DNA of 40,441 nucleotides from Mariprofundus sp. (GTDB lineage: Bacteria > Pseudomonadota > Zetaproteobacteria > Mariprofundales > Mariprofundaceae). Positions within the stretch are counted from its first letter, which is position 1, and each line of letters opens with the position of its first letter. The notes beneath the pieces were generated by a model. That model saw only the letters and a program-made list of their open reading frames with translations. It ran no database searches and was not told where the DNA came from. The stretch spans positions 1 to 40,441 of the forward strand of contig JAJFLH010000014.1 in the NCBI GenBank assembly GCA_021772775.1, given 5' to 3'. Positions 2,078 through 20,076 of the stretch are shown here, one piece after another. Position numbers and translations under genes: made by a program.

Positions 2078-2089
2078 TTCTTTCAGTAA

Positions 2090-2381: not shown

Positions 2382-2457
2382 CGCAGGGGATAGGAGGAAT
2401 TTGATTTCACAATGTATATTGCTTTAGAGTATTTTAATTTCCTCCCTGTGTTTTTTC
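2382..2457 (+). promoter_or_regulatory. Stem-loop with T-tract in the leader of the NYN gene
   Basis: GGAGGAA at 2393-2399 pairs with TTCCTCC at 2439-2445, with a possible outer CAG/CTG extension and a 39-nt AT-rich loop. Six T residues follow at 2451-2456. The structure ends about 25 nt before the NYN start codon. It could be a terminator or attenuator that limits read-through into the nuclease-NTPase operon. The long loop makes this uncertain. Confidence 0.35.
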
Positions 2458-2481
2458 AATTAATAAATGTAAGCAGATAGT

Positions 2482-3207
2482 ATGCTAAATAATTACACTG
2501 TCTCAGTTTTTATTGATTACGATAATCTCAGTCCTGTTCAGAAGCAGAGCGGTATTTTAGATGTTGTTAATAAGGTTTTATTACGAACACCGATAGAGTT
2601 AAATGTAACTCGTATTACATGCGATGTGCGAGTTTATGGTGGTTGGTATGAAGATAATGAGATGACGCAAAAAGCACAAAGTGTTGCAGTTGAAATTCAA
2701 GGTGATTTTCCTGTGATTATAAAACTACCAGCGGAAGCTGGAGACTTTGTGCAGGTAAGGGCGAATGCTGAACTTGCTTTAGCTATGCTTGAAGAGCCAT
2801 CACATCATTTGTTTGATACGTTCAGGCGCAAGGGAAAGCCAACGAATATTCGTTTGAAAACTCCCTTAGATGTGGGCTGTACTGACCAATCATGTGCAAT
2901 TCCCCAAATGAAAAAAATGTTAAAAAAGGGCAGATGTCCAAAGGCTGGGTGTACTAGTTCAACGGAAAGTATTGTATACAGAATTGAACAAAAACTTGTA
3001 GATACAATGCTAACTTGTGATTTGATTTATGCACCTGCCGTTGGTTATAACAATATCATCATAGTAAGTGGTGATGATGACTTTTTACCTCCCTTACGAA
3101 CTCTTTCATTACGAGGGACCTCAGCTATTAGGTTTCTTCCAAGACATAGCAGTCAACGATTAGATTCTCCTAATGCTGACGCTCAGTTAATCGAAATGGA
3201 GCTTTAA
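2482..3207 (+). CDS. NYN (PIN-like) domain putative ribonuclease with Cys4 insertion
   Basis: This 241-residue protein has the layout of an NYN-domain, PIN-like metal-dependent nuclease. An N-terminal strand ends in F-I-D-Y-D-N-L (D12, N15). A conserved helix carries D174 and D180 (V-D-T-M-L-T-C-D-L-I). A strand then ends in V-S-G-D-D-D-F (D198-D200), where PIN-like enzymes place their acidic active-site residues. Between the first and second parts sits an insertion with four cysteines, C133-x4-C138-x13-C152-x4-C157, a plausible zinc-binding knuckle. NYN nucleases of known function cleave RNA; the substrate here is unknown. The stop codon is 2 nt from the start of the NACHT-like gene, so the two are almost certainly co-translated. 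The pair is AT-rich and sits between IS elements. I infer a nuclease effector controlled by the NTPase. Confidence 0.8.
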   Translation: MLNNYTVSVFIDYDNLSPVQKQSGILDVVNKVLLRTPIELNVTRITCDVRVYGGWYEDNEMTQKAQSVAVEIQGDFPVIIKLPAEAGDFVQVRANAELALAMLEEPSHHLFDTFRRKGKPTNIRLKTPLDVGCTDQSCAIPQMKKMLKKGRCPKAGCTSSTESIVYRIEQKLVDTMLTCDLIYAPAVGYNNIIIVSGDDDFLPPLRTLSLRGTSAIRFLPRHSSQRLDSPNADAQLIEMEL

Positions 3208-3209
3208 CT

Positions 3210-5477: not shown

Positions 5478-5518
5478 ATTGAGCTTAGATCAGGCTTAAT
5501 CGATATTTTGATGTTTCT

Positions 5519-7226
5519 CGACTGTCCGGGTTTGGCCCAGACCGTGTGAAAACGTAAATCAAACAGTGATCTGTTGCGCTAATATTATTTAACTGCATTT
5601 TATGACCGTATTTGGCTTTGATTCAAGCAAAAGAAGGTCTTGGTCGGTTTATAAGGCCAGTATTAATCGGTATTCGACTGGAGAATGTAAAAATACCGGG
5701 CTAAAATCCATCCTATACCCGGATGGCTTCGATTAACGCCCCGATTCCCATGATATTCATGACACGTTTCAAATTATAGGCCAGCACATGCAAGCTCATT
5801 TCAGTGCTGACACGTTTAATTGTTTTGGTCAGAAAGTGTGTTGCTCCCATCCATGCCTTGATGGTTCCGAAAGGATGTTCAACAGTCTCTTTGCGAACCT
5901 GCATCGCATCAGGGTTTTGATTGAGTCTAAGTTGCATGGCATCAAGAACACCTTGGTGCTCCCAACGTTTGATTCGACGTTCCAGGCCAGTGGTACACTG
6001 CGAACTTATTGGGCACTCTCTGCAGGCAGCTCTATTCCAATAGCAGTGCATAGTCTTTCCCTGTTCCACTGTCGAAAAATGCCATGGCAATAGCTCTTTA
6101 GCTGGGCAAAGGTATTCATTGGTATCAGATAAATATTGAAAATCTTGCTTCGTAAACCGGCCATGTACCTTACTACTTGATGTCAGTGGCTCAGGCACAA
6201 AGACTGCAATACCAGCATTTTCACAGGCAAGAATTTCTTCGCCTTTGAAATATCCGCGATCAGCAAGTACCTCAAGATTCGTCTCTCCTATGCTATATCG
6301 AGCCTTCTTGGCCATGCTGAACAGTTGGTTTTTGTCATTGCCTTCATTGGTGACTTCATGCGTCACAATGAGATGATGCTTGGTATCAACGGCAGTCTGA
6401 ACATTGTAGCCAACAATCCCTTTGCCGCCTGTCATCATCGAGCGAGAATCTGGATCAGTCTGAGATATTTGTTTATCCGGTTGTGCCAGCATCTCGGCTT
6501 CTATTGCCTTTAAGCCTTGCATCGTCTCTTTCAGCTTGGCTATTTTATCCTGAAGCTGAGTCGCCGTATCCTTATGTTCAGATGATTGCTGACGATCAAT
6601 AGTATCGAGTTGTTTGAAATACCGATCAATGCTCTCTTCAACCTGTTTTAGGCGGCGCTTCATCTTTGCCTGGGTGAAATTCTTCTCACGTGCATTGACC
6701 GCTTTAAACTTGCTTCCATCAATAGCAACAACAGCGTAAGCAAACAGGTTTAGGGTTCGGCATAACACAACAAAATCACGGCATACGTTGCGGATCGCTT
6801 TGCCATTATCCTTGCGAAAATCTGCAATAGTTTTGAAATCCGGCATCAGGCGGCCCGTCAGCCACATCACTTCCACATTGCGCTGGCTTTCCCGTTCAAG
6901 GCGACGACTGGATTGGATGCGGTTCAGGTATCCGTAAATGTAGAGCTTCAACAAGATTGCAGGATGATAAGCGGGTCTGCCTGTTGCATGTGGTTCAACA
7001 CCACGAAAACCAAGACCACCCAGATCAAGTTCATCAACAAAGACATCAATCACTCGAACCGGATTATCCTCTTCAACATAGTCATCCAGTGATTCGGGAA
7101 ATAATGTGCTCTGGTTACGGCTTTCGCCTTCAATAAAACGCTTCATGAAAACACCCCACCAACGTTATGAGATAATCATACCATTAATGTTCAGCGTTTT
7201 CACACACTCTGGGCCGAACCCCGTCG
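5519..7226 (-). mobile_element. IS1182-family element, copy 2, complete
   Basis: Complete element of about 1.7 kb. The left terminal repeat has ggcccagaccgtgtgaaaac at 5534-5553, extending outward to cgactgtccg at about 5519. The right repeat is gttttcacacactctgggcc at 7196-7215, extending to about 7226 with a short deletion in the outer part. The outer edges are only approximate and no target duplication is obvious. The left edge is 42 bp after the NACHT-like gene stop codon. Confidence 0.8.
5713..7146 (-). CDS. IS1182-family transposase (copy 2)
   Basis: This 477-residue DDE transposase is collinear with copy 1 at 420-1853 but clearly diverged, most of all in the coiled-coil segment (about 165-225) and the region before the final catalytic Glu. 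It keeps the equivalents of D143 (A-I-D-G-S-K-F), D296 (A-D-R-G-Y-F) and E423 (V-E-H-P-F-G). The start at 7146 gives MKRF, the same N-terminus as copy 1. The frame is uninterrupted and both terminal repeats are present, so this element looks intact. It faces the same way as copy 1, but the divergence argues that the two arrived separately and do not form a recent composite transposon. Confidence 0.9.
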   Translation of the reverse strand: MKRFIEGESRNQSTLFPESLDDYVEEDNPVRVIDVFVDELDLGGLGFRGVEPHATGRPAYHPAILLKLYIYGYLNRIQSSRRLERESQRNVEVMWLTGRLMPDFKTIADFRKDNGKAIRNVCRDFVVLCRTLNLFAYAVVAIDGSKFKAVNAREKNFTQAKMKRRLKQVEESIDRYFKQLDTIDRQQSSEHKDTATQLQDKIAKLKETMQGLKAIEAEMLAQPDKQISQTDPDSRSMMTGGKGIVGYNVQTAVDTKHHLIVTHEVTNEGNDKNQLFSMAKKARYSIGETNLEVLADRGYFKGEEILACENAGIAVFVPEPLTSSSKVHGRFTKQDFQYLSDTNEYLCPAKELLPWHFSTVEQGKTMHCYWNRAACRECPISSQCTTGLERRIKRWEHQGVLDAMQLRLNQNPDAMQVRKETVEHPFGTIKAWMGATHFLTKTIKRVSTEMSLHVLAYNLKRVMNIMGIGALIEAIRV

Positions 7227-7684
7227 TTGGTGACTGACGTAAAGCGTTATAATACTGGGCCATAGTATTTAGAAAGAAAGCTGAGGGTGACATTGAATGG
7301 ATCCCTGCAAGAAGCAAAGCCCATGAGCTGATAGGTAATGGTAAGGTTTTGAGTTGTTCACGAGTAAGCGCGAGTAAGGGAAATCTTGTTGAGAAATGTT
7401 AAGGTTTCAATCTTCCAAGTTGTTAGGAAATGTTAGCATTCAAAGGCTTCTAGATTGGTATGCCATGGTAAGGTTACAAGGCCCATTTAGTGTCAAGTTT
7501 TGGCAAGGTATGAAGCCTCATGTTTGAATGAAAAAGGGCTGAATCAGGCGCATCACGACTGCTAAGGCACGCTAAGGTTGCAAGGCTATGTTTGAGTGAA
7601 AACTCCAATGTCTCTGAAGCTCGCTACTTATGGCGATGATGGATCTGGCGGTCACCAATCGTCACCTCTAGCGATGATAGCAGC
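7227..7684. repeat. Gene-free stretch with short degenerate repeats
   Basis: I see no convincing gene in these 458 bp. The stretch contains scattered copies of a short motif, G-N-TAAGGTT, at about 7341, 7398, 7467 and 7571, with a partial copy at 7561. There are also two longer imperfect direct repeats. One is gttgagaaatgtta (from about 7388) against gttaggaaatgtta (from about 7422). The other is an ATGTTTGA-x-TGAAAA block near 7520 and again near 7589. The repeats are irregularly spaced and could be remnants of integrase arm sites, replication iterons or decayed mobile DNA. No function is assigned. Confidence 0.5.
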
Positions 7685-7714
7685 TTGACCAAGAATAAAT
7701 TATAGGAGTATAAT
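7685..7714 (+). promoter_or_regulatory. Strong sigma-70 type promoter
   Basis: A -35 box TTGACC (7685-7690) and a perfect -10 box TATAAT (7709-7714) are separated by 18 bp. Transcription would begin near 7721, giving a leader of about 240 nt before the gene at 7964. Confidence 0.7.
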
Positions 7715-7720
7715 TCCACT

Positions 7721-7963
7721 CATGCGGCAATAGTCGCATCGGGTTTGGAAGCCTGAAGGAATCGTGCGACAAGTCCGCCGCACATGCAGTAGGGCTTTTT
7801 TTATGCCCGCTCCACAGTGTGTACCAGTTGGTGAGTCGGGTGTTTGGAGGCTTTTGCCTACTGGGTTTAACCACGGTTCCCCGGTCTTCCAACCAAGCAC
7901 TCGGCTTGCCTTTTTCGTTTGGAAGCGAAAAGACAGGTACATTAATAACCGGAGGGCATTATT
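7721..7963 (+). ncRNA. Structured leader with complementary blocks, possible regulatory RNA
   Basis: This is the 240-nt transcribed leader between a strong promoter and the small gene at 7964. It contains an ATGCG/CGCAT hairpin (7722-7740), and TTGGAAG or TTGGAGG blocks at 7745-7751, 7844-7850 and 7919-7925. A complementary CTTCCAA block lies at 7886-7892. The third TTGGAAG sits in the 8-nt loop of a TTTTCG/CGAAAA hairpin (7912-7931). A CAAGC/GCTTG stem (7894-7908) runs into five T residues. Multiple blocks competing for one complement resembles the RNA-based immunity and attenuation of P4-like satellites, but I cannot show homology. The leader also contains an open frame (7764-8012), which I do not call as a gene. 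Confidence 0.4.
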
Positions 7964-8260
7964 ATGCCTAATTCAACACAGGACCAATCCGTTCAACAAA
8001 CACAAAAACTGATCATTGAAGACGCAGTAATCTGGCTGGAACAAGGGATTGATACCCTCTCTCAGCTGGAAGCACTCTTTAACGCCATAGGAAAAGAATG
8101 CGGTGAGCATACAGAAATTCATAAGTTGGCAATGCTTGGCAAGCATGTTGCCTTTGATATAGGCAATGGCATTGATGTAGCTCGTGAAGACTTTGAAGGA
8201 AATAAACACCATTTAATGACTATGTGCCAACAGCCTGGTGACGAGGCGGTGCAATCATGA
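7964..8260 (+). CDS. Small island protein of unknown function (98 aa)
   Basis: I do not recognise this protein. It is 98 residues, acidic and probably all-helical, with no membrane segment and no catalytic motif that I can name. A good ribosome binding site, GGAGG at 7951-7955, lies 8 nt upstream of the ATG. Its stop codon overlaps the ATG of the next small gene (ATGA), so the two are translationally coupled. Its position, directly behind a strong promoter and a structured leader, is like that of the small regulatory or accessory genes of integrative elements. That is only context. Confidence 0.65.
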   Translation: MPNSTQDQSVQQTQKLIIEDAVIWLEQGIDTLSQLEALFNAIGKECGEHTEIHKLAMLGKHVAFDIGNGIDVAREDFEGNKHHLMTMCQQPGDEAVQS

Positions 8261-8427
8261 GCAATCAAAACAAGACCATCGACATAAATGCAATCATTTC
8301 TGATTCAGACATTCAAGTCGCTCTTCGTATTGGATTAACGCGGATGATTGATGATGCAAATAATGGAACTTGCGCAGGATCCAAGTCAAAATTTGCCAGA
8401 CTGAAAAGTGCGCTGGAGAGTCTCTAG
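8257..8427 (+). CDS. Small hypothetical protein (56 aa) coupled to the preceding gene
   Basis: A 56-residue open frame starts at the ATG that overlaps the previous stop codon (ATGA) and ends at TAG 8425-8427, just before a strong terminator. The product begins MSNQNKTIDINAII and has a basic C-terminal half (K-S-K-F-A-R-L-K). No family is recognised. The overlap with the previous gene and the terminator directly behind it argue that this is a real last gene of a two-gene operon. Confidence 0.55.
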   Translation: MSNQNKTIDINAIISDSDIQVALRIGLTRMIDDANNGTCAGSKSKFARLKSALESL

Positions 8428-8472
8428 CGTGCGCATTTGAGGTGAACGGCTAAGCAGTCACCAAGTTCAAAG

Positions 8473-8502
8473 AAGACCGTCCGTTGTGGCGGTCTTTTTT
8501 TA
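8473..8502 (+). terminator. Rho-independent terminator
   Basis: AAGACCG (8473-8479) pairs with CGGTCTT (8490-8496) around a 10-nt loop, and a run of seven T residues follows. It closes the two-gene operon that begins at 7964. Confidence 0.85.
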
Positions 8503-8544
8503 TTATTCATTGTATTTTCATGTGTGACCGTTAGATTATGACGC

Positions 8545-8862
8545 ATGGTGAGTAATGTTATCCAAATGCGAATCACTCCTGCTAATGCCAAAAAGCGCAT
8601 TGCAGAAGTCGCTAAGGACTCAGCAAAAGTTATTTTCACCAGGCATGCTAATGAACGAAGCAGCCAGAGAAGCATTACACGCAAACAAGTAATCAATTGT
8701 TTAACTCATGGGTGTTTTACCGAAGACCCATACTGGGATCAGATGAATGGTGGTTATAAATTTACCATGCAAACAGTTGATTCAGGAGAAAGAGTGAGTG
8801 TGGCAGCTGCTTTGTACAAGAACGATAACGGCGATTATGTTGTTGTTATCACCGTGTTTTAG
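8545..8862 (+). CDS. DUF4258 domain protein, putative toxin of a TA pair
   Basis: This 105-residue protein has the DUF4258 signature F-T-R-H-A-N-E-R-S-S-Q-R (31-42), followed by I-T-R-K-Q-V-I-N-C-L. It ends in alternating strands, as in small RelE/HigB-like folds. Proteins of this family are frequently encoded next to HTH antitoxins and are treated as putative toxins. The gene directly precedes an HTH gene, whose Shine-Dalgarno sequence overlaps this stop codon, so the pair is coupled. No clear ribosome binding site precedes the ATG at 8545; an internal ATG at 8566 is an alternative start. The toxin role is inferred from family and context. Confidence 0.7.
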   Translation: MVSNVIQMRITPANAKKRIAEVAKDSAKVIFTRHANERSSQRSITRKQVINCLTHGCFTEDPYWDQMNGGYKFTMQTVDSGERVSVAAALYKNDNGDYVVVITVF

Positions 8863-8872
8863 GAGGCATTGA

Positions 8873-9313
8873 ATGTATCATTATACTGACAGCGGGTTGG
8901 ACTATATCCATCTGGCGAATGGGTATGATGTTGTGGAAACCCCTTATGGTGAGGGTGTGGCCATACATGATCTTGAAGGATTACATGCCGTAATTGGGCG
9001 CTGTATTACTGATCGTCCAGTAATGAGTGGTGATGAATTTCGCTTTCTCAGAATTGAACTTGGACTGTCTCAGGTTGATGTTGCCAATCTTTTTGGTGTT
9101 GGTGAATCAGCGGTGCGCAACTGGGAGAAGGGTAGAACAAAGCATGCGCCTGATCCATCGGCAAACCTGATGCGTGGTTTGTACCTCGAAAGTATTAGTG
9201 AAGATAGTAAACTGGGCGAAATTCTAAAAAGGGTCAGTCAACTTAACCGTGATATTCATCATCTTGAGATAAATTTAGAAGAGACAGAGGATGGTTGGAA
9301 GCTAGCAGCCTGA
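8873..9313 (+). CDS. HTH (Xre-like) protein, putative antitoxin
   Basis: This 146-residue protein has a helix-turn-helix at about 54-90 (F-R-F-L-R-I-E-L-G-L-S-Q, then V-A-N-L-F-G-V, then V-R-N-W-E-K-G). This is the pattern of MqsA/HigA-type antitoxins with a C-terminal HTH. The N-terminal 50 residues are small and acidic and may bind the partner. A strong AGGAGG at 8861-8866 overlaps the stop of the DUF4258 gene. Such antitoxins usually repress their own operon. A terminator follows 20 nt after the stop. The pair probably stabilises the island or acts in defence, which is inferred. Confidence 0.75.
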   Translation: MYHYTDSGLDYIHLANGYDVVETPYGEGVAIHDLEGLHAVIGRCITDRPVMSGDEFRFLRIELGLSQVDVANLFGVGESAVRNWEKGRTKHAPDPSANLMRGLYLESISEDSKLGEILKRVSQLNRDIHHLEINLEETEDGWKLAA

Positions 9314-9334
9314 GTGTTGTCAGATCCAATTCAT

Positions 9335-9362
9335 AGCCCTGCCTAACGGTGGGGCTTTTTTA
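9335..9362 (+). terminator. Rho-independent terminator after the TA-like pair
   Basis: AGCCC (9335-9339) pairs with GGGCT (9352-9356), followed by a T run at 9356-9361. Confidence 0.7.
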
Positions 9363-9388
9363 TGCATTCCTTCTGTTATCGTCGACCA

Positions 9389-9520
9389 ATGAATATTGAA
9401 ACAATCTTCTTTATATTGGTGGCAACTTTAGCAATTGGTATTGCTCTAATTGCAGCTGTCCGTGCATATCAAATTCGCCAACGCGATAAGAGGGCTTTCG
9501 ATTATAACCCTTGGAGTTAA
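9389..9520 (+). CDS. Small single-pass membrane protein (43 aa)
   Basis: A short open frame encodes 43 residues. A hydrophobic segment at about 5-24 is followed by a basic cytoplasmic-type tail (R-A-Y-Q-I-R-Q-R-D-K-R) and ends N-P-W-S. An in-frame ATG at 9362 would add nine residues but lies inside the terminator T-run, so the ATG at 9389 is preferred. There is no clear ribosome binding site. The membrane-plus-basic-tail layout suggests a real small protein, but no family is recognised. Confidence 0.45.
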   Translation: MNIETIFFILVATLAIGIALIAAVRAYQIRQRDKRAFDYNPWS

Positions 9521-9580
9521 GTGCTCAGCGCCATCCTTTTTATCAATTTTATTCATATTTCCTAAAAAAAGTTGCATTTT

Positions 9581-9598
9581 ATCATCAATATTGATGAT
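9581..9598. promoter_or_regulatory. 18-bp perfect palindrome, operator-like
   Basis: ATCATCAATATTGATGAT is perfectly self-complementary and lies 46 bp upstream of the lipoprotein start. It could be an operator for a dimeric repressor such as the HTH protein encoded at 8873. It has no T-tract and no loop, so it is not a terminator. Confidence 0.45.
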
Positions 9599-9643
9599 GA
9601 ATGATCTACACTAAGGCGTAGGTTAGCTCGATTGGGAGAAATT

Positions 9644-10564
9644 ATGCATGGAAACAAATTAGAGTCTTCAATATCTACATATGGTCGGTTGGTTTTATTG
9701 TTTTTCTTTCTAAGTTTTTTAGGGGCGTGTGCTTTATCAGGGTATGACGATGAAGAGGAAGTATATTTCAATCCATTTAAAGGTTACTACAAAGCTGGCA
9801 TAACTCAGGATGAGCTTAATAAATACCCCATTTATATTCTGACAAAAGATCCCCCCAAAGTAATGAAAGGCTGTGATGATAAACATGATGCTCTCGCTAT
9901 GCATGAAAATGGATTTGTGATGATTGGCTATTCAAGCTTTAACGGGACCAGAGGAAGTGTATCGGATGCGGCGAATCAAGCTAAGAATGTTCATGCTGAG
10001 GTGGCTATTTATTGCTCTAAACACACTGAGACTATGTCAAGAATGCGTGCTGTCAGCTCTCCTGACATTAAATTTTCAACATCAAGTGGGCAAACTTTTG
10101 GTTCAGGTACCATTACAAATAGCTACGGGGATTCGTTTAATTATTCTGGCAGAAGCTCCGCCGGAGGAGGCACAACAACATTCGGTACAAAGACTACATA
10201 CGTACAAGATCGTGTGAGCCGTTATGACTTTTCTGCGACATATTGGGTGAAAACTTTGCCACCAATATTTGGAGCCTTTGCTGTCTCCCTTAAGCCCGAA
10301 GAAAGAAGGCTGTATCAAACAAACAAAGGGGCCAAAGTTCATATAACGATCATAGGTTCGCCTGCTTTTAATGCTGATATTTTTAGAGGGGATATAATCA
10401 AGAAGATTGGAAACTCTGAAGTTGTTGATGGAAGTTCATACGGTAACGCTGTAAAAGAAAATTCAGGCAGGAACGTGAAAATTTTAATCTTACGTGATAA
10501 AGAGTTAATAACTAAGGATGTATACATTGAAAAACTAGTTGTTGGATCAAATATTATTCAATGA
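9644..10564 (+). CDS. Lipoprotein with C-terminal PDZ-like domain
   Basis: The start at ATG 9644 is chosen because GGGAGAA lies just upstream; an in-frame TTG at 9632 would fall inside that ribosome binding site. The 306-residue product has a basic N-region, a hydrophobic core and the lipobox L-G-A-C ending at C29, so it is a predicted lipoprotein. After an acidic linker comes a region with two cysteines, then a Gly/Ser/Thr-rich stretch at about 145-185. A PDZ-like module follows at about 220-300 (G-S-P-A-F-N-A-D-I-F-R-G-D-I-I-K-K-I, the usual 'A-x-x-A-G-L-x-x-G-D-x-I' pattern). PDZ modules bind peptide ends in the envelope. The partner is unknown, and the gene sits between a TA-like pair and the TIR operon. 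Confidence 0.75.
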   Translation: MHGNKLESSISTYGRLVLLFFFLSFLGACALSGYDDEEEVYFNPFKGYYKAGITQDELNKYPIYILTKDPPKVMKGCDDKHDALAMHENGFVMIGYSSFNGTRGSVSDAANQAKNVHAEVAIYCSKHTETMSRMRAVSSPDIKFSTSSGQTFGSGTITNSYGDSFNYSGRSSAGGGTTTFGTKTTYVQDRVSRYDFSATYWVKTLPPIFGAFAVSLKPEERRLYQTNKGAKVHITIIGSPAFNADIFRGDIIKKIGNSEVVDGSSYGNAVKENSGRNVKILILRDKELITKDVYIEKLVVGSNIIQ

Positions 10565-10655
10565 AGTGACGTTAAACGTGCCCATATGACCAGTAGGGCT
10601 TAGATCAAGTGCTTTGTACTATAGTGGGATTGCTGAATAGAGGTAGAAGTGAGTA

Positions 10656-10961
10656 ATGGGGAAGCCAGTAATAAAAGTGTTTGCAGATTATAGCATGGGT
10701 GCGTGGCTCTGGGGGCCATATCCTGATGATCTTGATAATAGTCAATTGATGAAAGACGGAGAGGCATGGTCTTCTCGCTGGGAAAGTGCGGCAACACAGG
10801 CTATGAAGATAGCTGACGGAGAGGATTATGCTGAAGTAACACCACCTGGCTGGGATTGGGACGACTGGAATGCTGAAGGTGAAGTGTTGGCGCAGCGGGT
10901 TAGGGATGTTGTTGGTGGTGGTTACAAGGTGATCCACATCGAGCAGAGGGACTTCGTGTGA
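10656..10961 (+). CDS. Hypothetical protein, first gene of the TIR operon (101 aa)
   Basis: I do not recognise this family. The protein is 101 residues, acidic and rich in Trp (W-L-W-G-P-Y, P-P-G-W-D-W-D-D-W), with no signal peptide and no membrane segment. The Trp/Asp-rich centre could be a binding surface. Its stop codon overlaps the GTG start of the next gene (GTGA), which strongly supports both being real and translated together with the TIR gene downstream. A GAGGT sequence upstream may be the ribosome binding site. It may serve as sensor or regulator of the TIR effector, which is inference only. Confidence 0.65.
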   Translation: MGKPVIKVFADYSMGAWLWGPYPDDLDNSQLMKDGEAWSSRWESAATQAMKIADGEDYAEVTPPGWDWDDWNAEGEVLAQRVRDVVGGGYKVIHIEQRDFV

Positions 10962-11245
10962 TAAGAGACTGGTTCTATGACTTACTGGAAGTGATTAATT
11001 TTTCATCGAGATCTGCATGGATGTTTATTATTGGCATGGTGGGCTTCATGGGGATGATTCTTTTGGGAGAGCAGATAGTAACCAACCTTGAACTATCAGG
11101 AACAGTAAAACCGCTGGAGGATGGAATAAAGGAAAGGTTATTTCGTCACTATGATAAAGCTGCGTTAGTGATTCTTATTTCCTCATGGGTAGCTGCATAT
11201 AAGTTTTACAGGAAAGATAAAAAACGTTTGTTTGGAGATTACTAA
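10958..11245 (+). CDS. Two-pass membrane protein, second gene of the TIR operon (95 aa)
   Basis: The product is 95 residues, starting at a GTG that overlaps the preceding stop codon. It has two predicted membrane segments: about 19-38 (W-M-F-I-I-G-M-V-G-F-M-G-M-I-L-L-G) and about 68-82 (A-A-L-V-I-L-I-S-S-W-V-A-A-Y). A loop of about 30 residues lies between them, and the C-terminus is basic. No family is recognised. It ends 2 nt before the TIR gene. The TIR protein also has a membrane anchor, so the two may form a membrane complex; that is inferred from operon structure. Confidence 0.65.
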   Translation: MIRDWFYDLLEVINFSSRSAWMFIIGMVGFMGMILLGEQIVTNLELSGTVKPLEDGIKERLFRHYDKAALVILISSWVAAYKFYRKDKKRLFGDY

Positions 11246-11247
11246 AA

Positions 11248-11709
11248 ATGTCAGATGTATTCATTAGTTATTCAGTAGATGATGAGAAGAAGGCTAAGGA
11301 AGTACATAAACTACTTACATCTTATGGAATAAGTACTTTTCTGGCTGGGATATCGTTAGAGCCAGGGGATGATTGGAGCGACGAAATATTGGGAAATCTC
11401 AATACTTCAAAGTGGGTTCTTTTCTTTGCTTCTAAAGCCGCCTGCAAATCACCAGCTGTACAGCAAGAGCTTGGGATTGCATTGGGGACCGGGAAACAAA
11501 TTATTCCTGTAACTTGGGACATTAAGCCCGAGCAGTTGCCTGCGTGGATAAAAGGGAAGCAGGCAATTGATCTGACGAAGGGACGAATTGAAAACTTACG
11601 TCCAACTGCTGAAAAAATCGCAAAGCAATTAAAATCCGACAAGGTTACAACAGGTATCATCATTGCTCTTCTTGGTGTCGCATTTTTTTATGCATCGAAA
11701 GGTAAATAA
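11248..11709 (+). CDS. TIR domain protein with C-terminal membrane anchor
   Basis: This 153-residue protein is a clear TIR domain. The first strand is D-V-F-I-S-Y-S at 3-9. The BB-loop region contains F-L-A-G-I-S-L-E-P-G-D-D-W (31-43). The putative catalytic Glu is E74 in S-P-A-V-Q-Q-E-L, the position used by NAD-cleaving TIR enzymes. The strand I-I-P-V follows. Residues 132-149 are hydrophobic (I-I-I-A-L-L-G-V-A-F-F-Y-A), giving a C-terminal tail anchor. Bacterial TIR proteins in Thoeris, CBASS and related systems consume NAD or make signalling nucleotides on infection. Here the TIR gene is the third gene of an overlapping operon with a membrane protein and a soluble protein, a combination I do not recognise. 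An immune role is likely but inferred. Confidence 0.85.
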   Translation: MSDVFISYSVDDEKKAKEVHKLLTSYGISTFLAGISLEPGDDWSDEILGNLNTSKWVLFFASKAACKSPAVQQELGIALGTGKQIIPVTWDIKPEQLPAWIKGKQAIDLTKGRIENLRPTAEKIAKQLKSDKVTTGIIIALLGVAFFYASKGK

Positions 11710-11762
11710 TTAATAAGTGATATGTTGAACATCAGGCTGGAAAGAAGGAGATAATTAATAAG

Positions 11763-12545
11763 ATGGAAACAAAGAGAGTGTTGATACCAGATGATGGGTT
11801 TGAGGGTGTAGCTATTGGTTCATCTTTACAGTTAATTCTTGGAAGGATGACTGAAGGGAAAGGTATTAAAGATTGTATTATAATGGTTCCATCGAAAGGG
11901 CATTTACAGAACACGGTACTTTCCAAGGTTCTTCGGATGGCATTTAGAGATAAAGGTGCGCAAGCCTTGATCAAAGCGGGGCAACTATGCTTGCAAGAAG
12001 GCAAATTTCAAATTGAAACAGTAAGAACAATTAAAAGCTACAGTAGAGCAGATGCAATTATTGTAGTTTATGCCGACCAAGAAATGATGGATAAAGTGGA
12101 TTCAAACAAGAACTTCCAAATAGTGATAGCTATTCCATGCTTGGAAGAGTCCATAGCTGATTGGAAACGAACTTGGAGTCCATTAATGGTTGGAGAAAAA
12201 CAAGGGTCGCAAGCTTCTCTTATAAGCAATCCAGTTTTGGAAGAAGCTTTAGAAACTCTTACTTTTTTGGCAAATCTCTCAAACAGCGTGCTAACTTCAA
12301 CTGATAAAGATGCTACTATAGAAGTATTTAGAATACTCAGAGCCAATAACCAATCAGAAGAACTAAAAAATATTCGAGCCTGGTGTATTAAGAATGGCTG
12401 GAACTCTAAAGCTGCAGATGAAGTAGTTAAGCATGCGGCTAAGGCATTTGGATTAAAGTCAAAGCCTCAAAACAAAAGGTTGTTGGCACCAGATATTTAT
12501 CAGCAATGGGTGGATGCTTCTCGTAAAAGTAAGAAGGAAATGTAG
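11763..12545 (+). CDS. Hypothetical protein, alpha/beta N-terminal domain (260 aa)
   Basis: I do not recognise this family. The protein is 260 residues. The N-terminal 135 residues look like alternating strands and helices: R-V-L-I-P-D-D-G-F-E-G-V-A-I-G, then C-I-I-M-V-P-S, then A-I-I-V-V-Y-A-D, then Q-I-V-I-A-I-P. This suggests a nucleotide-binding-like alpha/beta fold, though no definite phosphate-binding loop is seen. The C-terminal half is helical and basic (K-P-Q-N-K-R-L-L-A-P). An AAGGAG ribosome binding site lies just upstream. The gene starts 53 nt after the TIR gene on the same strand and ends 5 nt before the next gene, so it may belong to the same transcription unit. Confidence 0.6.
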   Translation: METKRVLIPDDGFEGVAIGSSLQLILGRMTEGKGIKDCIIMVPSKGHLQNTVLSKVLRMAFRDKGAQALIKAGQLCLQEGKFQIETVRTIKSYSRADAIIVVYADQEMMDKVDSNKNFQIVIAIPCLEESIADWKRTWSPLMVGEKQGSQASLISNPVLEEALETLTFLANLSNSVLTSTDKDATIEVFRILRANNQSEELKNIRAWCIKNGWNSKAADEVVKHAAKAFGLKSKPQNKRLLAPDIYQQWVDASRKSKKEM

Positions 12546-12550
12546 ATAAT

Positions 12551-13291
12551 ATGAATTATTTTGAAGATGCAAAGCAGTTGGTTGAACACTCAATAGCTCA
12601 ACTTCCTTCCCTTAAAAATGAATTAGATATATACAAGGTCTCTGGGGGAATATCGACTAAGTTTAAGATATTAACTAAGGAAATCCTTGGTAATTTACAC
12701 TCTTCTTTGGACTACTGTGCATGTGGAATATACCAAGCAGTTAATGGTGACTTAGGCAAAGCAAGGCCACACTTTCCTATCGCAAATTTGGATGATGATT
12801 TGAGAAGTTTTTCACAGAAACTAAAGTCTGCTATTCCAAATGTAGAAGATAAACTTCCAATGGTTGCTAGCTACATAATTGGTTGTCAGTCATTTTCTGA
12901 AGCTCAAGGGAATTGGTTGACGGATTTAAAAAACTTGACTAATGACAACAAACATACAGCCATGACAGCAAATGATGGATATTCAGGAGTAGATTTAATT
13001 ATTCGAGGCAGAGATGGACAGAGTGTATTCACTGCAACATCGATAACGCTTGGAGAAGAGGCGAAAATTAAAGGGTATGGTGATCTTATCATACGTGGGC
13101 CACAGAAAATAGTGCCAGGTAAGCCTGTTATTTTTGAAGGTAATGGAGAAGTTTATGCGCAACTTCGAAGGGAAATATTTTTTACTCAGCCTAAGTCTAA
13201 AATTGTGGTGATGCCTTTTGTGGAAAATGTTAGTCAGGCTGTCGAAAAGACAGTTAAAGATATTTCGATAATGTCTAAGTTGAATGGTTAA
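12551..13291 (+). CDS. Hypothetical protein, last gene of the island (246 aa)
   Basis: The protein is 246 residues and no family is firmly recognised. The N-terminal half is helical with an L-H-S-S-L-D-Y motif (about 51-57), a P-H-F-P-I segment and N-D-N-K-H (about 131-135). The combination of L-H-S-x-L-D with a later N-x-x-K-H is seen in some uncharacterised helical proteins and might be HEPN-like, but I cannot confirm it. The C-terminal half is strand-rich. It follows the preceding gene by 5 nt and is the last gene before the tRNA-derived attachment site. Confidence 0.6.
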   Translation: MNYFEDAKQLVEHSIAQLPSLKNELDIYKVSGGISTKFKILTKEILGNLHSSLDYCACGIYQAVNGDLGKARPHFPIANLDDDLRSFSQKLKSAIPNVEDKLPMVASYIIGCQSFSEAQGNWLTDLKNLTNDNKHTAMTANDGYSGVDLIIRGRDGQSVFTATSITLGEEAKIKGYGDLIIRGPQKIVPGKPVIFEGNGEVYAQLRREIFFTQPKSKIVVMPFVENVSQAVEKTVKDISIMSKLNG

Positions 13292-13419
13292 TGATAATCA
13301 GTGTGCTGTACGAAGCTGCTAGGTGTTTTTAAAAATAGCGGTACAAAAAACGGTATAAGTAAGTTATTTAACACTTAATTGCATGTAAGTTGTTGATAAA
13401 AAAAGATATGTTAACTTAA

Positions 13420-13442
13420 TTCGAGTCCCTGAAGCGCCACCA
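13420..13442 (+). other. tRNA 3'-end remnant: putative island attachment site (att)
   Basis: The sequence reads as the last 23 nt of a tRNA: T-loop TTCGAGT, 3' T-stem CCCTG, 3' acceptor strand AAGCGCC, discriminator A and CCA. The 5' T-stem and all the rest of a tRNA are absent upstream, where the DNA is AT-rich. An integrase recombining at the 3' end of a tRNA gene leaves exactly this kind of partial copy at one end of the island. The acceptor predicts an intact tRNA beginning GGCGCTT elsewhere; it is not the tRNA-Lys in this window. Short repeats, GCGGTACA and ACGGTATA (about 13339-13357), lie upstream and may be integrase arm sites. Confidence 0.7.
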
Positions 13443-13446
13443 TTTC

Positions 13447-13474
13447 AAGCCCCTGTTAACGCAGGGGCTTTTTT
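13447..13474 (+). terminator. Rho-independent terminator of the target tRNA gene
   Basis: AAGCCCCTG (13447-13455) pairs perfectly with CAGGGGCTT (13462-13470), followed by six T residues. It sits 4 nt after the CCA of the tRNA remnant, as expected for the original tRNA terminator left on the chromosomal side of the junction. Confidence 0.9.
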
Positions 13475-13811
13475 ATTGCCTGCTACTCGCTTGTGAGCGA
13501 TTTTGGGCTGCTTCTGCCAAGCTTGGTGCGGTGGAGTCCTATTGACTTTGAATACTTCATCCAGACATAGAAGCGGCCATTGAAGTGTTTTTATCTCAAG
13601 TGTGGGGAGTTAGAAGTTTATCCCAACAGGAGCGGAATTTCATCAATTCACAAATTCTGTTTCACCTTGTTGGAATGATAGCTATCATTGTGATGAGCTT
13701 GTTTGCCGTAGTGATTAGGGCGATGCTGATCAGTTGGCAGCCCACCACGCAAAGATAAAAGAGTGATTTTGAAGAGGATAGAGACGATGGGATGGCAGGT
13801 TAATTTGCATA
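13475..13811 (+). other. Intergenic stretch with a possible small membrane ORF
   Basis: No confident gene is seen here. A frame beginning at GTG 13585 and ending at TAA 13756-13758 would encode 57 residues with one hydrophobic segment (L-V-G-M-I-A-I-I-V-M-S-L-F-A-V-V-I). It lacks a good ribosome binding site. It may be a small membrane protein or a decayed gene at the junction between island and chromosome. Confidence 0.3.
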
Positions 13812-15062
13812 ATGGGTGATTTCTCTCTTTTCGGTAGCGATAGCGGTGGTGAGGAGGAGATGTCCGCTAAGGAACGCCGTGAGAAAGCCAATCATGCACT
13901 GTTGGCTGGTAAACATGAGAAGGCGTTGAAGCTGTTTAAACAATGTCATGCGGAGTCTCCCGCTGATTTGCGTATTTATACTAAAGTTGCTGAATTAAAA
14001 GAGAAAACTGGTGATGTCCAGGGTGCTATTGCTGATTACACCAAAATATCTAAAGCCTATGCTGCCGATGGATATGAGGCGCAGGCCATTGCTGTTGAGA
14101 ATTTGATTTTACGTCTCGCCCCTGATCAGAAGAGCGTTCATGAAAACCTGAATGAGTTCAATGCGGATGACATTGATGCATTACATGCTGCTTCCACTCA
14201 GCGGCTATTTGCGCCAGCTTTTGTAGAGAAAATACGCACTGCTCTTTCCCGCATGCCATTGCTGTCAGATTTACCTGCTGATCATCTGGACTTTTTTATT
14301 GATGCCTTGCCATTGCACAGTTTTGAGGCTGGAGAGTATATTTATAGGGCGGCTAGCCAGGGTGAGCAGCTCTATTTGCTTGCGATAGGGCAAGTGCAAC
14401 TTCAGGTAACTGATGTGCAGGGAAATAAAAAGGTGTTTGCTGAGCTTAATGCAGGGAGCTTTTTTGGTGAGCGGGTATTTTTGTCTCACAATGCACATCA
14501 TAACGATGCTGTTGCCGCCGCAGAGTGCACTATCCTGGCCGTGGATAGAGAAACATTTGATCGCTGGGTTATGCAATCGCCTGAAATTCGTAATACAGTA
14601 GAGGCCTTTTACAGGCAACGTATTTTGCTGCGGCTGTTGGCGATGACTCCGGTCTTTGATGAGGCTGTGCATGAAGATGCACGCATCGCTCTAGCGGAAA
14701 AATTTACGCTACGAAACTTTGAAGATGGTGAGCTCATCCTGCGAGAAGGAGAGCGGGGTGAAACTTTCTATTTGATTCGATCCGGCAAAGTTGAGCTGAT
14801 TGTGCCCGGTCCAGATGGTGATCTCGATTTACATATTCACATGGGCGAAGGCGAATTTTTTGGTGAGGTTGCACTGCTTACTGGACGTCCCCGCACAGCA
14901 ACGATTCATGCCCGTGGTACTGTTGAACTGATGGAGCTCTCACGGGGGGACTTTAATCAGATTGCGGATAAATACCCCCATGTACGCGAGGTGGTAAAAG
15001 AGTACTTGCAGATGCGTGCCAAGGTTACTATTGATGCGCTGCGCCAACGCCGTATGGAGTGA
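13812..15062 (+). CDS. TPR protein with two cyclic-nucleotide-binding folds
   Basis: This 416-residue protein probably links helical protein-protein interaction repeats to ligand-sensing beta-barrels. Residues 18-110 are TPR-like helices (A-N-H-A-L-L-A-G-K-H-E-K-A-L-K-L-F). Residues 148-265 form a first cNMP-binding fold, with a phosphate cassette S-F-F-G-E-R-V-F-L but no cassette Arg (A-H-H-N-D-A-V). Residues 275-395 form a second, with the canonical cassette F-F-G-E-V-A-L-L-T-G-R-P-R-T-A-T (G351, E352, R361). So the second site could bind cAMP or cGMP, while the first looks degenerate. There is no DNA-binding or catalytic domain, so it is probably an adaptor. An internal ATG at 13860, directly behind GAGGAGGAG, is an alternative start. 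It is the first gene beyond the island boundary. Confidence 0.75.
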   Translation: MGDFSLFGSDSGGEEEMSAKERREKANHALLAGKHEKALKLFKQCHAESPADLRIYTKVAELKEKTGDVQGAIADYTKISKAYAADGYEAQAIAVENLILRLAPDQKSVHENLNEFNADDIDALHAASTQRLFAPAFVEKIRTALSRMPLLSDLPADHLDFFIDALPLHSFEAGEYIYRAASQGEQLYLLAIGQVQLQVTDVQGNKKVFAELNAGSFFGERVFLSHNAHHNDAVAAAECTILAVDRETFDRWVMQSPEIRNTVEAFYRQRILLRLLAMTPVFDEAVHEDARIALAEKFTLRNFEDGELILREGERGETFYLIRSGKVELIVPGPDGDLDLHIHMGEGEFFGEVALLTGRPRTATIHARGTVELMELSRGDFNQIADKYPHVREVVKEYLQMRAKVTIDALRQRRME

Positions 15063-15216
15063 TAGAAAGTATTTGGCACGGTGAAGCGAGGTGAAAATAG
15101 ATATCCAATACTTCAAGATGCTCACTCCGCTTTGAAGCTCTTTCCTCTGCAAGGCTGAATTATTGGATAATATCGGATAAGTAGATCACCGATGTAGGCA
15201 GTTTATTACTTAGCTG

Positions 15217-15687
15217 TTATTTATGGCTGCCAGTCATGAATGACATCATCTTGACCTGATCTTCGTTGCGTTGATGCACCATCTTAGACTGATATAACAG
15301 CATATAGGTAAACAGCGAAAAAACTGTTTCTGGGCTTGTCTGCATCAAGCGGCTGAAATCTTCACGTTTCAAGCGATAGAGGAGTGTGTCTGCTGCAGCT
15401 GTGGCTGTCGCTGTGGCTGCTTCGCCAGAGAGAAATGTGACTTCACCAATCATCGCAGCCTCACCGAGACCTGCAAGGTGTTGCTCTTGGCCATCCATAT
15501 GCTGAAAAATATCGACAGAACCGGATCTTACCAAGTAGAGGATGCCGCCTTTTTCGCCTTCTCGGACAAAGCTTTCCCCTTTAGCTACAGCAATGGCATC
15601 CACAGCATTCGTCCACTGTTTCTTCTGCTCATCAGAGAACTCTGTTTTGATAATATTCTGCTCTATCCAATCAATATCAATGTTCAT
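15217..15687 (-). CDS. Small cyclic-nucleotide-binding-fold protein
   Basis: The start at 15687 is chosen because GGAGA lies about 9 nt upstream; a longer start at 15714 is possible. The 156-residue product is a single cNMP-binding beta-barrel (F-V-R-E-G-E-K-G-G-I-L-Y-L-V-R-S-G-S-V). Its cassette reads M-I-G-E-V-T-F-L-S-G-E-A-A-T-A-T-A: the Gly-Glu pair is present, but the Arg that contacts the cyclic phosphate is missing. Canonical cAMP binding is therefore doubtful. No HTH follows the barrel, so it is not a CRP-type regulator. It lies back-to-back with the sensor kinase gene and next to the two-barrel protein, which suggests a shared signalling role. Confidence 0.7.
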   Translation of the reverse strand: MNIDIDWIEQNIIKTEFSDEQKKQWTNAVDAIAVAKGESFVREGEKGGILYLVRSGSVDIFQHMDGQEQHLAGLGEAAMIGEVTFLSGEAATATATAAADTLLYRLKREDFSRLMQTSPETVFSLFTYMLLYQSKMVHQRNEDQVKMMSFMTGSHK

Positions 15688-15777
15688 CACTCTTCTCCGA
15701 TCTGCTTCATGCATGAGAAATAAGCTTGCAGCGAATATTTTTCATGCTGGCGAACCATAGAGCATAAAATAGACAAA

Positions 15778-15797
15778 GATGTGATCTATATTACATA
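15778..15797. promoter_or_regulatory. CRP-like palindromic site
   Basis: TGTGA-N6-TTACA at 15780-15795 differs from the CRP half-site pattern TGTGA-N6-TCACA at one position. The flanking bases extend the dyad symmetry. The site sits between the divergent cNMP-fold gene (start 15687) and the sensor kinase gene (start 15926). No CRP homologue is in the window, so recognition is unproven. Confidence 0.4.
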
Positions 15798-15925
15798 TTG
15801 TAACAATGAGAGCGCCATTTCGGAGTTACTTTTGTTAGCCAAACCATTCTCTACTGGTCCCAGATAGTTAGTTAAAAGCTTAACTAGTAGCTGACGTTGA
15901 TATAGTAACGCCAAACAGGAGAACC

Positions 15926-18382
15926 GTGGAACGCTCTGTTGTCTTGACTAAATCGTGTTATAAGTTCATATTAATATGCTTAATTTGCTGTTGGGAGGCG
16001 ACTATCAAGCTCCAATACAAAGCGATGTTGACTATATTGCTGTTTAGCATTTCTCTGCTGATTATCATGGTTGGAGGTTTTAACTACTTTAATAATCGGG
16101 CAGCAGTACAGTCTGAGCTAAGTAGCCTTGAAACGTTTGCAAAAGAGCTCTCCTTGCATCTTGAGACTCACCTTATGGAGGCTTCAAATATAGCGATTAC
16201 ACTCTCCTCTGCACCGCTTATAAGACAATCCTTGATCAGCAGTAACGATGAATACGCTCAGCTATCTGAAACAGAGCGTCAGGATAAGATAGGCCAGCTT
16301 AACAAACGCTGGATGAGTTCTGTGGATCCATCCGATTCCTTTATTATCAGTCATCTGAGTAATCCGGTAGCCGCTTTTCTTCAACAACAGCAGAAACTGT
16401 TTCCTGGGATGTATGGAGAGATTTTTATTACCAATCGTTTTGGGCGGATGATCGCCTCGACTGGTAAGCTGACCACACTGGCGCATGCGAGTAAATATTG
16501 GTGGAAGGCAGCATTCAATCATGGCAGCGGCAAAGTATTTTTTGATGACCGTGGGTTCGATACCAGTGTCGGTGGTTATGTGCTGGGCGTAGTTGTGCCG
16601 ATTTACCAAGCTGGTGAAATTATCGGTTTGCTAAAAGCCAATACCAATATTCTTGGCCCCATCCGCAAACTTATCGATAATGTTAAGGTGAAATATGATA
16701 TTAGCGCCAAGCTGGTACGCTCCAACGGCTTGATTGTGTACGAAAAAGATATCGAACCACTAAGTAAGGAGATAAACCCAGCTTTCAAAGCTTGCGTTGC
16801 TAGCCATGTGACAGCCTCTCATCATGATTCCGATAACGGGTCGCTGGTAGCGTGCTCTCCAGTATTAGTTACGATTGAATCTGGAAAGTTCGGCTTTGGT
16901 GGTAAAGGCCAGTCGATTGATCAGTTGAAAGGGAATGTTGATGAAACCTGGTCGGTTCTGTTAAGTGAAAAAACGGAACTTGCATTGGCTATTGCTCATG
17001 AAACAGCAAAAGCATTGGTCATCATCGGTCTGTTGATTGTACTGTTTGCCGCAGCACTTGCTTGGTCACTTGGTCGAATTGCAGCAAGACCGATTGTCAT
17101 GCTTGCCGAGGTTGCCAGAGCGATTGGTAAAGGCTCACTCAATTCGAGAGCTCCCGAAGGGGCAAAGGATGAGATTGGCAAGCTTGCAAAATCGGTTAAC
17201 AGAATGGCTGAAAACCTTCAGGCAACTATGGCTTCTCGTGATGAGCTGAAACAAGAAATTGAACTACGAAAAAAAGCTGAAGAGAGTTTGCGGCTGCTCT
17301 CCTCTTCAGTGGAGCAGGCGCGCGAGGCAATTAGCATTACCGATAGCGCTGGAACGATTGAATATATCAACCCTGCATTCACTAAAGTTACTGGTTATTG
17401 CCCTGAAGAGGCTATCGGTAAAAATCACAATATCCTTAACAGTAGTGCCCAGAATGACTCTTTTTATAAGGAGATGTGGGCTACCATCAATAACGGCTCG
17501 GCCTGGCAAGGTCGAATTGTAGATAAGGCAAAGGATGGTTCGCTCTATCCTGCCATGATGACCATATCACCGATATTCAATGAAGCAGGCGAAATCACCC
17601 ACTTTGTTGGAATTCAGCAGAATTTGAAAGCGTATGAAGAGTTGGAGGCCCAGTTACACCAGTCGCAGAAGATGGAGGCACTAGGTATTTTGGTTGGTGG
17701 TATTGCGCATGATTTTAACAACAAACTGGCCGGTATCACAGGCAACCTCTTCTTGGCTAAAACTAAGGCAGTTCAGCTTCCCGACGTGCTAAGTAATCTG
17801 GCAACGGTGGAAGCACTTAGTTTCCAGATTGCAGAGATTATCAAGCGTTTGTTGGTTTTTTCCAGCAAAGATGTTGTCGCTATGGAGCCATGTGATTTGG
17901 TATCATTTATCAGAGAGATACTCGAAGCTTACAAGCTTGATAAGCCTGACAATATCAGTGTTTTTCATGATATTTGTACGCAGGAGTTGCTTATTAATGG
18001 TGAGCTTTTACAACTGAAACAGATGATCCTGAATCTGTTGATTAATGCAGTAGATGCGCTGGCTAAGGCTGAAGAACCGGAGATTAAAGTGAAGGTGGAG
18101 CCGTTCAGTGCAGATGCTGAATTTTCTAGCGAACATCCAGATCTGAAAGCAGTAGTTTTCGCCCATATCATGATCAGCGATAACGGTTGTGGTATGAGTG
18201 ACAACGTGAAGTCGCATCTTTTTGAACCGTTCTTTACCACTAAGGGTGTTGATACCGACAAAGGATTAGGTCTACCTATGGTTTACGGAGCAGTTCAATT
18301 GCATCAAGGGCTTATCAAAATGGAAAACAATACAGGCCCTGGGGTTTCGGTGCATATCTATTTGCCACTGCTTTGTGAGTAA
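15926..18382 (+). CDS. Membrane sensor histidine kinase (periplasmic sensor, HAMP, PAS, NtrB-like core)
   Basis: This 818-residue kinase starts at GTG with AGGAG just upstream. TM1 at about 34-52 and TM2 at about 363-381 enclose a 310-residue periplasmic region, probably a dCache-type sensor. HAMP is at 382-434, a short coiled coil follows, and PAS is at 461-568 (Y-I-N-P-A-F-T-K-V-T-G-Y, then V-G-I-Q-Q-N). The H-box is G-G-I-A-H-D-F-N-N with H595, of the NtrB-like (HPK4) type. The ATPase domain has the N-box L-N-L-L-I-N-A-V-D-A-L, then D-N-G-C-G-M, E-P-F-F-T-T-K and G-L-G-L. It has no receiver domain, and no response regulator gene lies nearby, so its partner is unknown. The signal may be a small extracellular molecule; the chemotaxis-like periplasmic fold is inferred. 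Confidence 0.88.
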   Translation: MERSVVLTKSCYKFILICLICCWEATIKLQYKAMLTILLFSISLLIIMVGGFNYFNNRAAVQSELSSLETFAKELSLHLETHLMEASNIAITLSSAPLIRQSLISSNDEYAQLSETERQDKIGQLNKRWMSSVDPSDSFIISHLSNPVAAFLQQQQKLFPGMYGEIFITNRFGRMIASTGKLTTLAHASKYWWKAAFNHGSGKVFFDDRGFDTSVGGYVLGVVVPIYQAGEIIGLLKANTNILGPIRKLIDNVKVKYDISAKLVRSNGLIVYEKDIEPLSKEINPAFKACVASHVTASHHDSDNGSLVACSPVLVTIESGKFGFGGKGQSIDQLKGNVDETWSVLLSEKTELALAIAHETAKALVIIGLLIVLFAAALAWSLGRIAARPIVMLAEVARAIGKGSLNSRAPEGAKDEIGKLAKSVNRMAENLQATMASRDELKQEIELRKKAEESLRLLSSSVEQAREAISITDSAGTIEYINPAFTKVTGYCPEEAIGKNHNILNSSAQNDSFYKEMWATINNGSAWQGRIVDKAKDGSLYPAMMTISPIFNEAGEITHFVGIQQNLKAYEELEAQLHQSQKMEALGILVGGIAHDFNNKLAGITGNLFLAKTKAVQLPDVLSNLATVEALSFQIAEIIKRLLVFSSKDVVAMEPCDLVSFIREILEAYKLDKPDNISVFHDICTQELLINGELLQLKQMILNLLINAVDALAKAEEPEIKVKVEPFSADAEFSSEHPDLKAVVFAHIMISDNGCGMSDNVKSHLFEPFFTTKGVDTDKGLGLPMVYGAVQLHQGLIKMENNTGPGVSVHIYLPLLCE

Positions 18383-18549
18383 GGCTAAGAAACGTAATGC
18401 TCTTGAAACTATGTAGTGCATGTTTATTCTGAATAGGGAATGTGCTGTTTTGAAAGAGAGCTTATAGAGGGCTCTAACTGCTGATTTCACCGTAGATTTA
18501 TTGCGTCTTCTGCTCTGGAAGCAGCTACCAATGAATAGGTAGAGGTGCC

Positions 18550-18586
18550 CAAAAAAAGAAAACCCCGCATTCGAAAATGCAGGGTT
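18550..18586 (-). terminator. Terminator of gltBD
   Basis: On the minus strand, AACCCTGCATT pairs with AATGCGGGGTT (one mismatch), followed by TTCTTTTTTT. It lies about 55 nt beyond the gltD stop codon. Confidence 0.85.
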
Positions 18587-18639
18587 TGTCAGTAGACTGA
18601 GGTCTGAGTGAGCCCTCTTCGATTATTCGGATGCTTTGT

Positions 18640-20076
18640 TTAGCGGGGTAGGTCGCTTGAGCCTGTCAGGTATTCATCAACAGCGCGAGCGCTTTGACGG
18701 CCTTCACGAATAGCCCAAACCACTAAGGACTGACCACGACGCATATCACCGGCAGCAAATACTTTATCGATGCTGGTAGCATAATCGGAATCATTGGCAG
18801 CCACGTTACCGCGACCATCTCTGTCCACGCCCAGATCTTCTAACATGCCTTCATGCACAGGATGCACAAAACCCATTGCTAATGTGATCAGTTGAGCAGG
18901 AAGTTCGAATTCAGAACCTTCGATTTCGTTCAGTTTCCACTGGCCGTTTTCCTGCTTCCATTCTACGCGTACGCATTCGATAGATTGAACATTGCCATCA
19001 TCATCACCAATAAAACGTTTGGTGGAGACTTCCCAATCACGTTCACAACCTTCATCTTGTGAAGTAGAGGTGCGCATTTTCATTGGCCAGTTTGGCCATG
19101 TGGTAAGCTTGTTTGGTTTATCTGCTGGCCTTGGCAGGATTTCCAGCTGGGTAACAGATAGGGCACCGTGACGGTTGGATGTGCCGATGCAATCGGAACC
19201 GGTATCACCACCACCAATCACAACCACATGTTTACCTTTGGCAGAGACGAACTCTTTTTCAGGAATATCATCACCCAAGACACGCTGGGTGTTCTTGGTC
19301 AGGAACTCCATGGCAAAGTGGACACCATTCAACTCACGACCAGGCACAGGCAGATCACGTGAATCTTCAGAACCACCGGTCAGAAGCACTGCATCAAAAT
19401 CGTTGAGCAGTTCCTGAGTAGAGATATCTTTGCCAACATGGGCATTCACACGGAACTCAACACCTTCGGCCTGCATCTGAGCCATACGGCGATCAATAAC
19501 AGACTTTTCGAACTTGAAGTTTGGAATGCCATAGCGCATCAAACCACCAATGCGGTTGTTCTTTTCAAATAGTACAACAGCGTGACCGACACGCGCTAAC
19601 TGCTGCGCAGCCGCCATACCTGCAGGTCCGGAACCAACAATCGCTACACGTTTACCTGTTTTAGTTTCAGCAATTTGTGGCGTGATCAGGCCTTCATCCC
19701 AACCTTTTTCGATGATGGATAGCTCGATGTTTTTAATCGAAACAGCATCGCCAATCAGGTTTACAGTACATGCTTCTTCACACGGGGCAGGGCAGATGCG
19801 GCCGGTAAATTCAGGAAAGTTATTGGTAGAGTGCAATACATCCAGTGCTTCAGCCCACTTGCCTTTATAAACCAGATCATTCCAATCCGGGATGATGTTG
19901 TTGATCGGGCAACCGTTGTGACAAAATGGAACACCGCAATCCATGCAGCGGGCTGCCTGGGTGTTCATCTCTTCAGGTAGTTTGGAGAACTCATTGAAAT
20001 GCACCAGACGTTCTGCAACAGGCGCATAGGATAGGTTTTCTCTGTTGAACTCTTTGAATCCTGTTGGCTTACCCAT
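18640..20076 (-). CDS. gltD: Glutamate synthase (NADPH) small subunit
   Basis: This 478-residue subunit takes electrons from NADPH through FAD and iron-sulfur clusters and passes them to GltB, which makes glutamate from 2-oxoglutarate and glutamine. The N-terminal cluster ligands are C44, C47, C52 and C56 ([15 protein letters not shown]), with a second group at C95, C99 and C103. The FAD site is [10 protein letters not shown] (about 147-156) and the NADPH site is [12 protein letters not shown]. The C-terminal V-F-A-A-G-D motif that completes the FAD site is present. Its start overlaps the end of gltB by 8 nt, so the subunits are translationally coupled. Length is usual for the family. Confidence 0.97.

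Follow-up and report, generated by a model that had tools for sequence, protein, structure and literature searches.

A tRNA-Met 3' end repeat as the right end of an integrase island and the probable internal junction of a rearranged tandem array in Mariprofundus sp.

Results

The att repeat and the features of the window

The window is the entire contig C6 (40,441 nucleotides) of a 3.12 Mb draft assembly (G000), and it carries the T-loop-to-CCA end of a tRNA (TTCGAGTCCCTGAAGCGCCACCA) at positions 13420-13442. The features arranged around this repeat are as follows:

1-299, plus strand: 3' end of an IS30-type copy, which splits contig C8 from the window contig
300-13419, no strand: window part of the int1 island, whose tRNA and integrase side lies at C8:20337-38482
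420-1868, minus strand: IS1182-type transposase (Pfam DUF772 and DDE_Tnp_1), with its other terminal repeat at the C8 end
2482-5477, plus strand: NYN-domain protein (Pfam NYN, 2.3e-7) and 755-aa protein, a candidate defence module
10656-13291, plus strand: five-gene cargo set with a TIR-domain protein (Pfam TIR_2, 3.2e-21)
13350-13359, plus strand: candidate integrase arm site ACGGTATAAG, a 10-mer common to both island ends
13420-13442, plus strand: att repeat, the 23-nt tRNA-Met 3' end with CCA, with an exact second copy in the tRNA-Met of C8
13443-13504, minus strand: degenerate 3' tail of a tyrosine integrase gene of the Arm-DNA-bind_2 type (tblastn), the rest of the gene being absent
13447-13474, plus strand: termC, an intrinsic terminator by fold energy, of a type known from integrase-proximal ends of elements, with a near copy behind a tRNA-Met 3' fragment beside an integrase gene in G011
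13812-15062, plus strand: TPR and double cNMP-binding protein (Pfam cNMP_binding, twice)
18640-20076, minus strand: gltD, the first genus-core gene right of the att, present in 23 of 23 genus genomes at 81-100% identity

The window has a single copy of the repeat, against 0 expected from shuffles, and the whole genome has exactly two with up to two mismatches allowed, the other copy being the 3' end of the tRNA-Met(CAT) on C8. The two copies share 24 nt when the following T is included, beginning at the T-loop. A 14-nt core of the tRNA end has only three copies in the genome, the third at C8:14566. No other part of tRNA-Met was found in the window, and ARAGORN called no tRNA at 13420-13442. 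The stem of termC (13447-13456 paired with 13461-13470), followed by a T run, has a folding energy of -17.6 kcal/mol (z about -5). The initial annotation had described a 23-nt remnant of a tRNA with CCA and without the remaining tRNA, a strong terminator right behind it, and a genomic island ending at the remnant, all of which agree with these results. It had also predicted an intact tRNA starting GGCGCTT with the same 23-nt end and a tyrosine integrase at its side; both were found on C8, as the tRNA-Met(CAT) at C8:20260-20336, the genome's only tRNA matching the att repeat, and as a P4-type integrase gene at C8:20502-21833 (int1).

The int1 island and its probable joint between two contigs

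The int1 integrase contains Arm-DNA-bind_3, Phage_int_M, and Phage_integrase domains and comes directly after the intact tRNA-Met; the order on C8 is tRNA-Met, a terminator, int1, a DUF1376/primosomal-like gene, a DnaB-like helicase gene, and the gene of a 2633-aa protein (L004:7585-15486). The C-terminal part of this protein matches DarB-like and other large phage proteins, and such a phage-like polyvalent protein suggests that the tRNA-proximal half of the island derives from a prophage or satellite. The 10-mer ACGGTATAAG lies twice upstream of int1 (C8:20463 and 20484) and recurs 70 bp left of the window att, with only two copies in each contig; these positions are those expected of integrase arm sites, for which the 10-mer is a candidate.

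The right end of C8 and the left end of the window both lie inside an IS30-type element, which has 12 3' ends and 11 5' ends genome-wide, almost all of them where a contig stops. Only the C8 end and the C6 start have the 3-bp target duplication AGA in common, and throughout the genome 8 of 11 left ends of this element pair with a partner by their duplications, versus 0-5 in offset controls. An IS1182-type element appears divided between the contigs: its left terminal repeat lies beside the IS30-type element on C8, the window has its transposase and the right one of its terminal repeats, and the spacing of this split element agrees with that of a second IS1182 copy in the window. Furthermore, an uninterrupted IS1182 relative in G015 aligns with C8:38421-38481 and then directly with C6:300-367. 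Because the AGA duplication is unique, the IS1182 element is restored, and its G015 relative spans the joint, we strongly infer that the two contig ends are one stretch, split in the draft assembly by an IS30-type copy. Other IS30 duplications pair the C8 start with the C35 end, C25 with C29, C11 with C16, C10 with the C5 start, and C27 with C1, and such duplications provide a means of scaffolding this draft genome.

The joined map reads tRNA-Met, int1, the rest of C8, the IS30-type copy, window 300-13419, and att, with the 24-nt exact repeat at the far end in the same orientation as the tRNA-Met. The island would comprise 31,266 bp of known sequence plus one IS30-type copy, about 32 kb in all. 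An intact tRNA, a direct repeat at the far end, and a recombinase beside the tRNA, by which tRNA-site genomic islands are recognized, are all present. Excision or transfer of the int1 island is a candidate property, as judged from sequence.

Cargo of the island

The cargo of the island is richer in AT and includes IS copies as well as candidate defence genes; the GC content left of the att is 0.418, or 0.399 when the two IS1182 copies are excluded. In the module at 2482-5477, the 755-aa protein shows a P-loop-like motif (DAGEGKTS) and a pentapeptide region (weak Pfam match to Pentapeptide_4); PADLOC gave no convincing match for this set and none for the 755-aa protein. In the five-gene set, the TIR protein (11248-11709) matches PADLOC TIR profiles up to 2e-9 and is the only protein of the set to do so, and the 260-aa and 246-aa proteins encoded at 11763-12545 and 12551-13291 have no Pfam or PADLOC match; the set is possibly an undescribed TIR defence set. 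On the joined map, both candidate sets lie between the C8 integrase and the remnant, inside the island as the initial annotation had placed them, and they are now assigned to a putatively mobile island whose insertion site and integrase are named. At 8545-9313, the gene of a DUF4258 protein precedes that of an HTH protein weakly similar to MqsA, and the two look like an island-borne toxin-antitoxin pair.

The DNA right of the att

Right of the att, no remnant of int1 was found. A tblastn search with the integrase tail of G011 against C6 and C8 gave a match with 51% identity over 37 aa (E 5.8e-5), about eight of the matching residues being the tRNA itself, and the integrase tail of G019, where the same integrase type ends into an att, matches 13443-13504 too. 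The translated tails read KIAHKRVAGNKKAPALTGA*NGGASGTR and QIGHKHTPETKKVPALTGTWNGGASGTR. At the DNA level, the stretch after 13442 aligns with the G011 region after a tRNA-Met 3' fragment with a local score of 51, versus at most 30 in shuffles. This G011 region makes up the last part of an integrase gene whose 3' end extends into the att, and the array there consists of att, integrase element, and att, adjoining a tRNA-Leu/1033-aa flank that follows tRNA-Met in G006. In the window, the att is followed over ~62 bp by what corresponds to the end of a second element (termC and integrase tail); given how short this stretch is, it lends moderate support to tandem accretion beside a decayed element. 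No far end of the second element was found, the third copy of the 14-nt core (C8:14566) adjoining another integrase. The DNA right of the att would then be the integrase-proximal stub of a second, decayed mobile element of a different integrase type. Because termC and the integrase tail match G011 and G019, and G011 offers the parent array, we take 13420 to be the point where the int1 island meets what is left of an older element.

The first 5.2 kb right of the att encode the TPR-cNMP protein, a cNMP protein, and a histidine kinase. The TPR-cNMP gene occurs in only 2 of 22 congeners (44-49% identity) and in most other genera of the family, and the genes at 13.8-18.4 kb are not conserved as neighbours across the genus; they could be chromosomal DNA lost in congeners, with the TPR gene kept outside the genus. 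A tRNA lost from beside the TPR gene is unlikely, since none lies near that gene in 17 relatives. The first genus-core gene is gltD, and the gene 3' of it varies among relatives. At the far right of the window (40045-40440), a repetitive Asn/Asp/Glu/Ser-rich reading frame runs off the contig end, and this repeat probably caused the contig break.

Housekeeping DNA had been said to begin at 13.44 kb; its edge is at gltD, ~18.6 kb, and the first 5.2 kb are not a genus-conserved neighbourhood. Likewise, the contrast between an AT-rich left side and the right side is borne out when the left (0.418) is compared with the DNA from 18640 onward (GC 0.465), but 13443-18600 is intermediate (0.447). The sharp boundary at 13442 stands as the right end of the island and fails as a border with the original flank of the tRNA.

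The native flank of tRNA-Met

A single conserved terminator, ending GCGTTAG, stands behind tRNA-Met or behind a copy of the att in about 14 genus genomes. The native-type terminator of G000 lies inverted within C8:14517-14579, at 14517-14566, behind the 14-nt tRNA-end copy at C8:14566, and beside it is a Na+/H+ antiporter gene, the same antiporter that follows tRNA-Met in G009. At the empty sites of G009 and G014 the tRNA is joined to this native terminator, whereas G000 has it on C8 instead of at 13443. Thus, the remnant does not border the original flank of the tRNA, as the native terminator and antiporter sit inverted elsewhere in the genome, and the empty sites do not join the tRNA to the right flank seen in the window. 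The inverted 14-nt tRNA-Met end also lies beside a frame-broken integrase, int2, which is different from int1 (C8:14566-15909; L003:6567-7910). Four TGTTTCA repeats lie beside int2, and this locus suggests an additional element that carries its integrase distally.

The gltD-tRNA-Met distance is 213-234 kb in two complete congeners versus about 37 kb on the joined map; the hotspot has therefore been rearranged, for which two nested inversions would be enough. The tRNA-Leu-side flank of G006 and G011 maps to C29, as does the 5' neighbour of tRNA-Met in G014, and the two C29 stretches examined contain no tRNA and no convincing native terminator; hence, the neighbourhood of the tRNA varies between lineages. 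C8 also has an AsmA-like gene, but few genomes of the genus share it, and it does not settle the original order.

Discussion

Our preferred reading, with a probability of about 80%, is that 13420 is both the right end of a ~32 kb tRNA-Met integrase island and a junction within a tandem array that has since been rearranged. The genome carries the att repeat, the intact tRNA, the integrase, and a native terminator at another place, and the history that we propose is one of tandem accretion, decay, and inversion at tRNA-Met. The island would have inserted into the single tRNA-Met(CAT) gene at its 3' end, the integrase recombining the tRNA end carried by the element with that of the chromosome; the tRNA would thereby stay whole and a 3' copy would remain at the far end of the island. 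Integration would have taken place beside an older decayed element, whose stub was left past the att, and a later rearrangement would have moved the native terminator and antiporter, inverted, to the other side of the tRNA, possibly through recombination at inverted att copies. That integrase-mediated recombination between inverted att copies (C8:14566 with the tRNA or with 13420) flipped chromosomal DNA and so moved the native flank is a tentative and rather doubtful proposal; if true, island integrases reshape chromosome order beyond inserting DNA.

The sharp end of the repeat and the shift in composition would suit a simple right edge at 13442, with termC and the TPR gene as native flank and the C8 terminator derived from a second, lost tRNA-Met locus, and some congeners (G004, G018) do have two tRNA-Met genes. 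However, about 14 genomes have the native-type terminator behind tRNA-Met or an att, the antiporter of G000 is the one found in G009, and termC matches the end of an element, and we consider such a simple edge improbable. It is less probable still that the window and C8 are unrelated contigs and that the att remnant was left by a different, lost element: they are separate in the assembly and IS30 ends many contigs, but the target duplication, the continuity of IS1182, and the common candidate arm sites all indicate C8. As for chance or conserved tRNA-like debris with no link to mobile DNA, a 24-nt exact repeat, none being expected by chance, together with the finding that several congeners have integrases and more than one att copy at this tRNA, leaves it a negligible probability. 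The rearranged tandem array is the reading that we retain, and it implies that a tRNA 3' remnant alone is no proof of an edge between island and chromosome; comparing the native tRNA terminator across relatives distinguishes a genuine edge from a junction inside a tandem array.

Comparison with known systems

The int1 island is of a known kind, that of tRNA-site islands with accretion and decay. As in other tRNA-site islands with a P4-type integrase, the integrase comes directly after an intact tRNA, a 3' repeat marks the far end, and the cargo is AT-richer with IS copies and candidate defence genes; here, however, the far end misses the native flank, and an IS splits the locus, which has also been rearranged. 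The accretion of incoming elements beside decayed ones (CIME) is well described (PMC5704250). The present locus shares with CIME tandem accretion an incoming element beside a decayed one that has lost its integrase and kept its att, as well as two integrases of different types, but the decayed partner amounts here to ~62 bp at the junction, its other end not having been found. The tRNA-Met arrays of G011, G012, G015, and G001 differ from that of G000 in their integrases, cargo, and terminators, and several of them end at the native terminator; nevertheless, they use the same tRNA, have integrases adjoining the tRNA or an att, and, in G001, G011, and G012, have att repeats that start at the same T-loop base as in G000.
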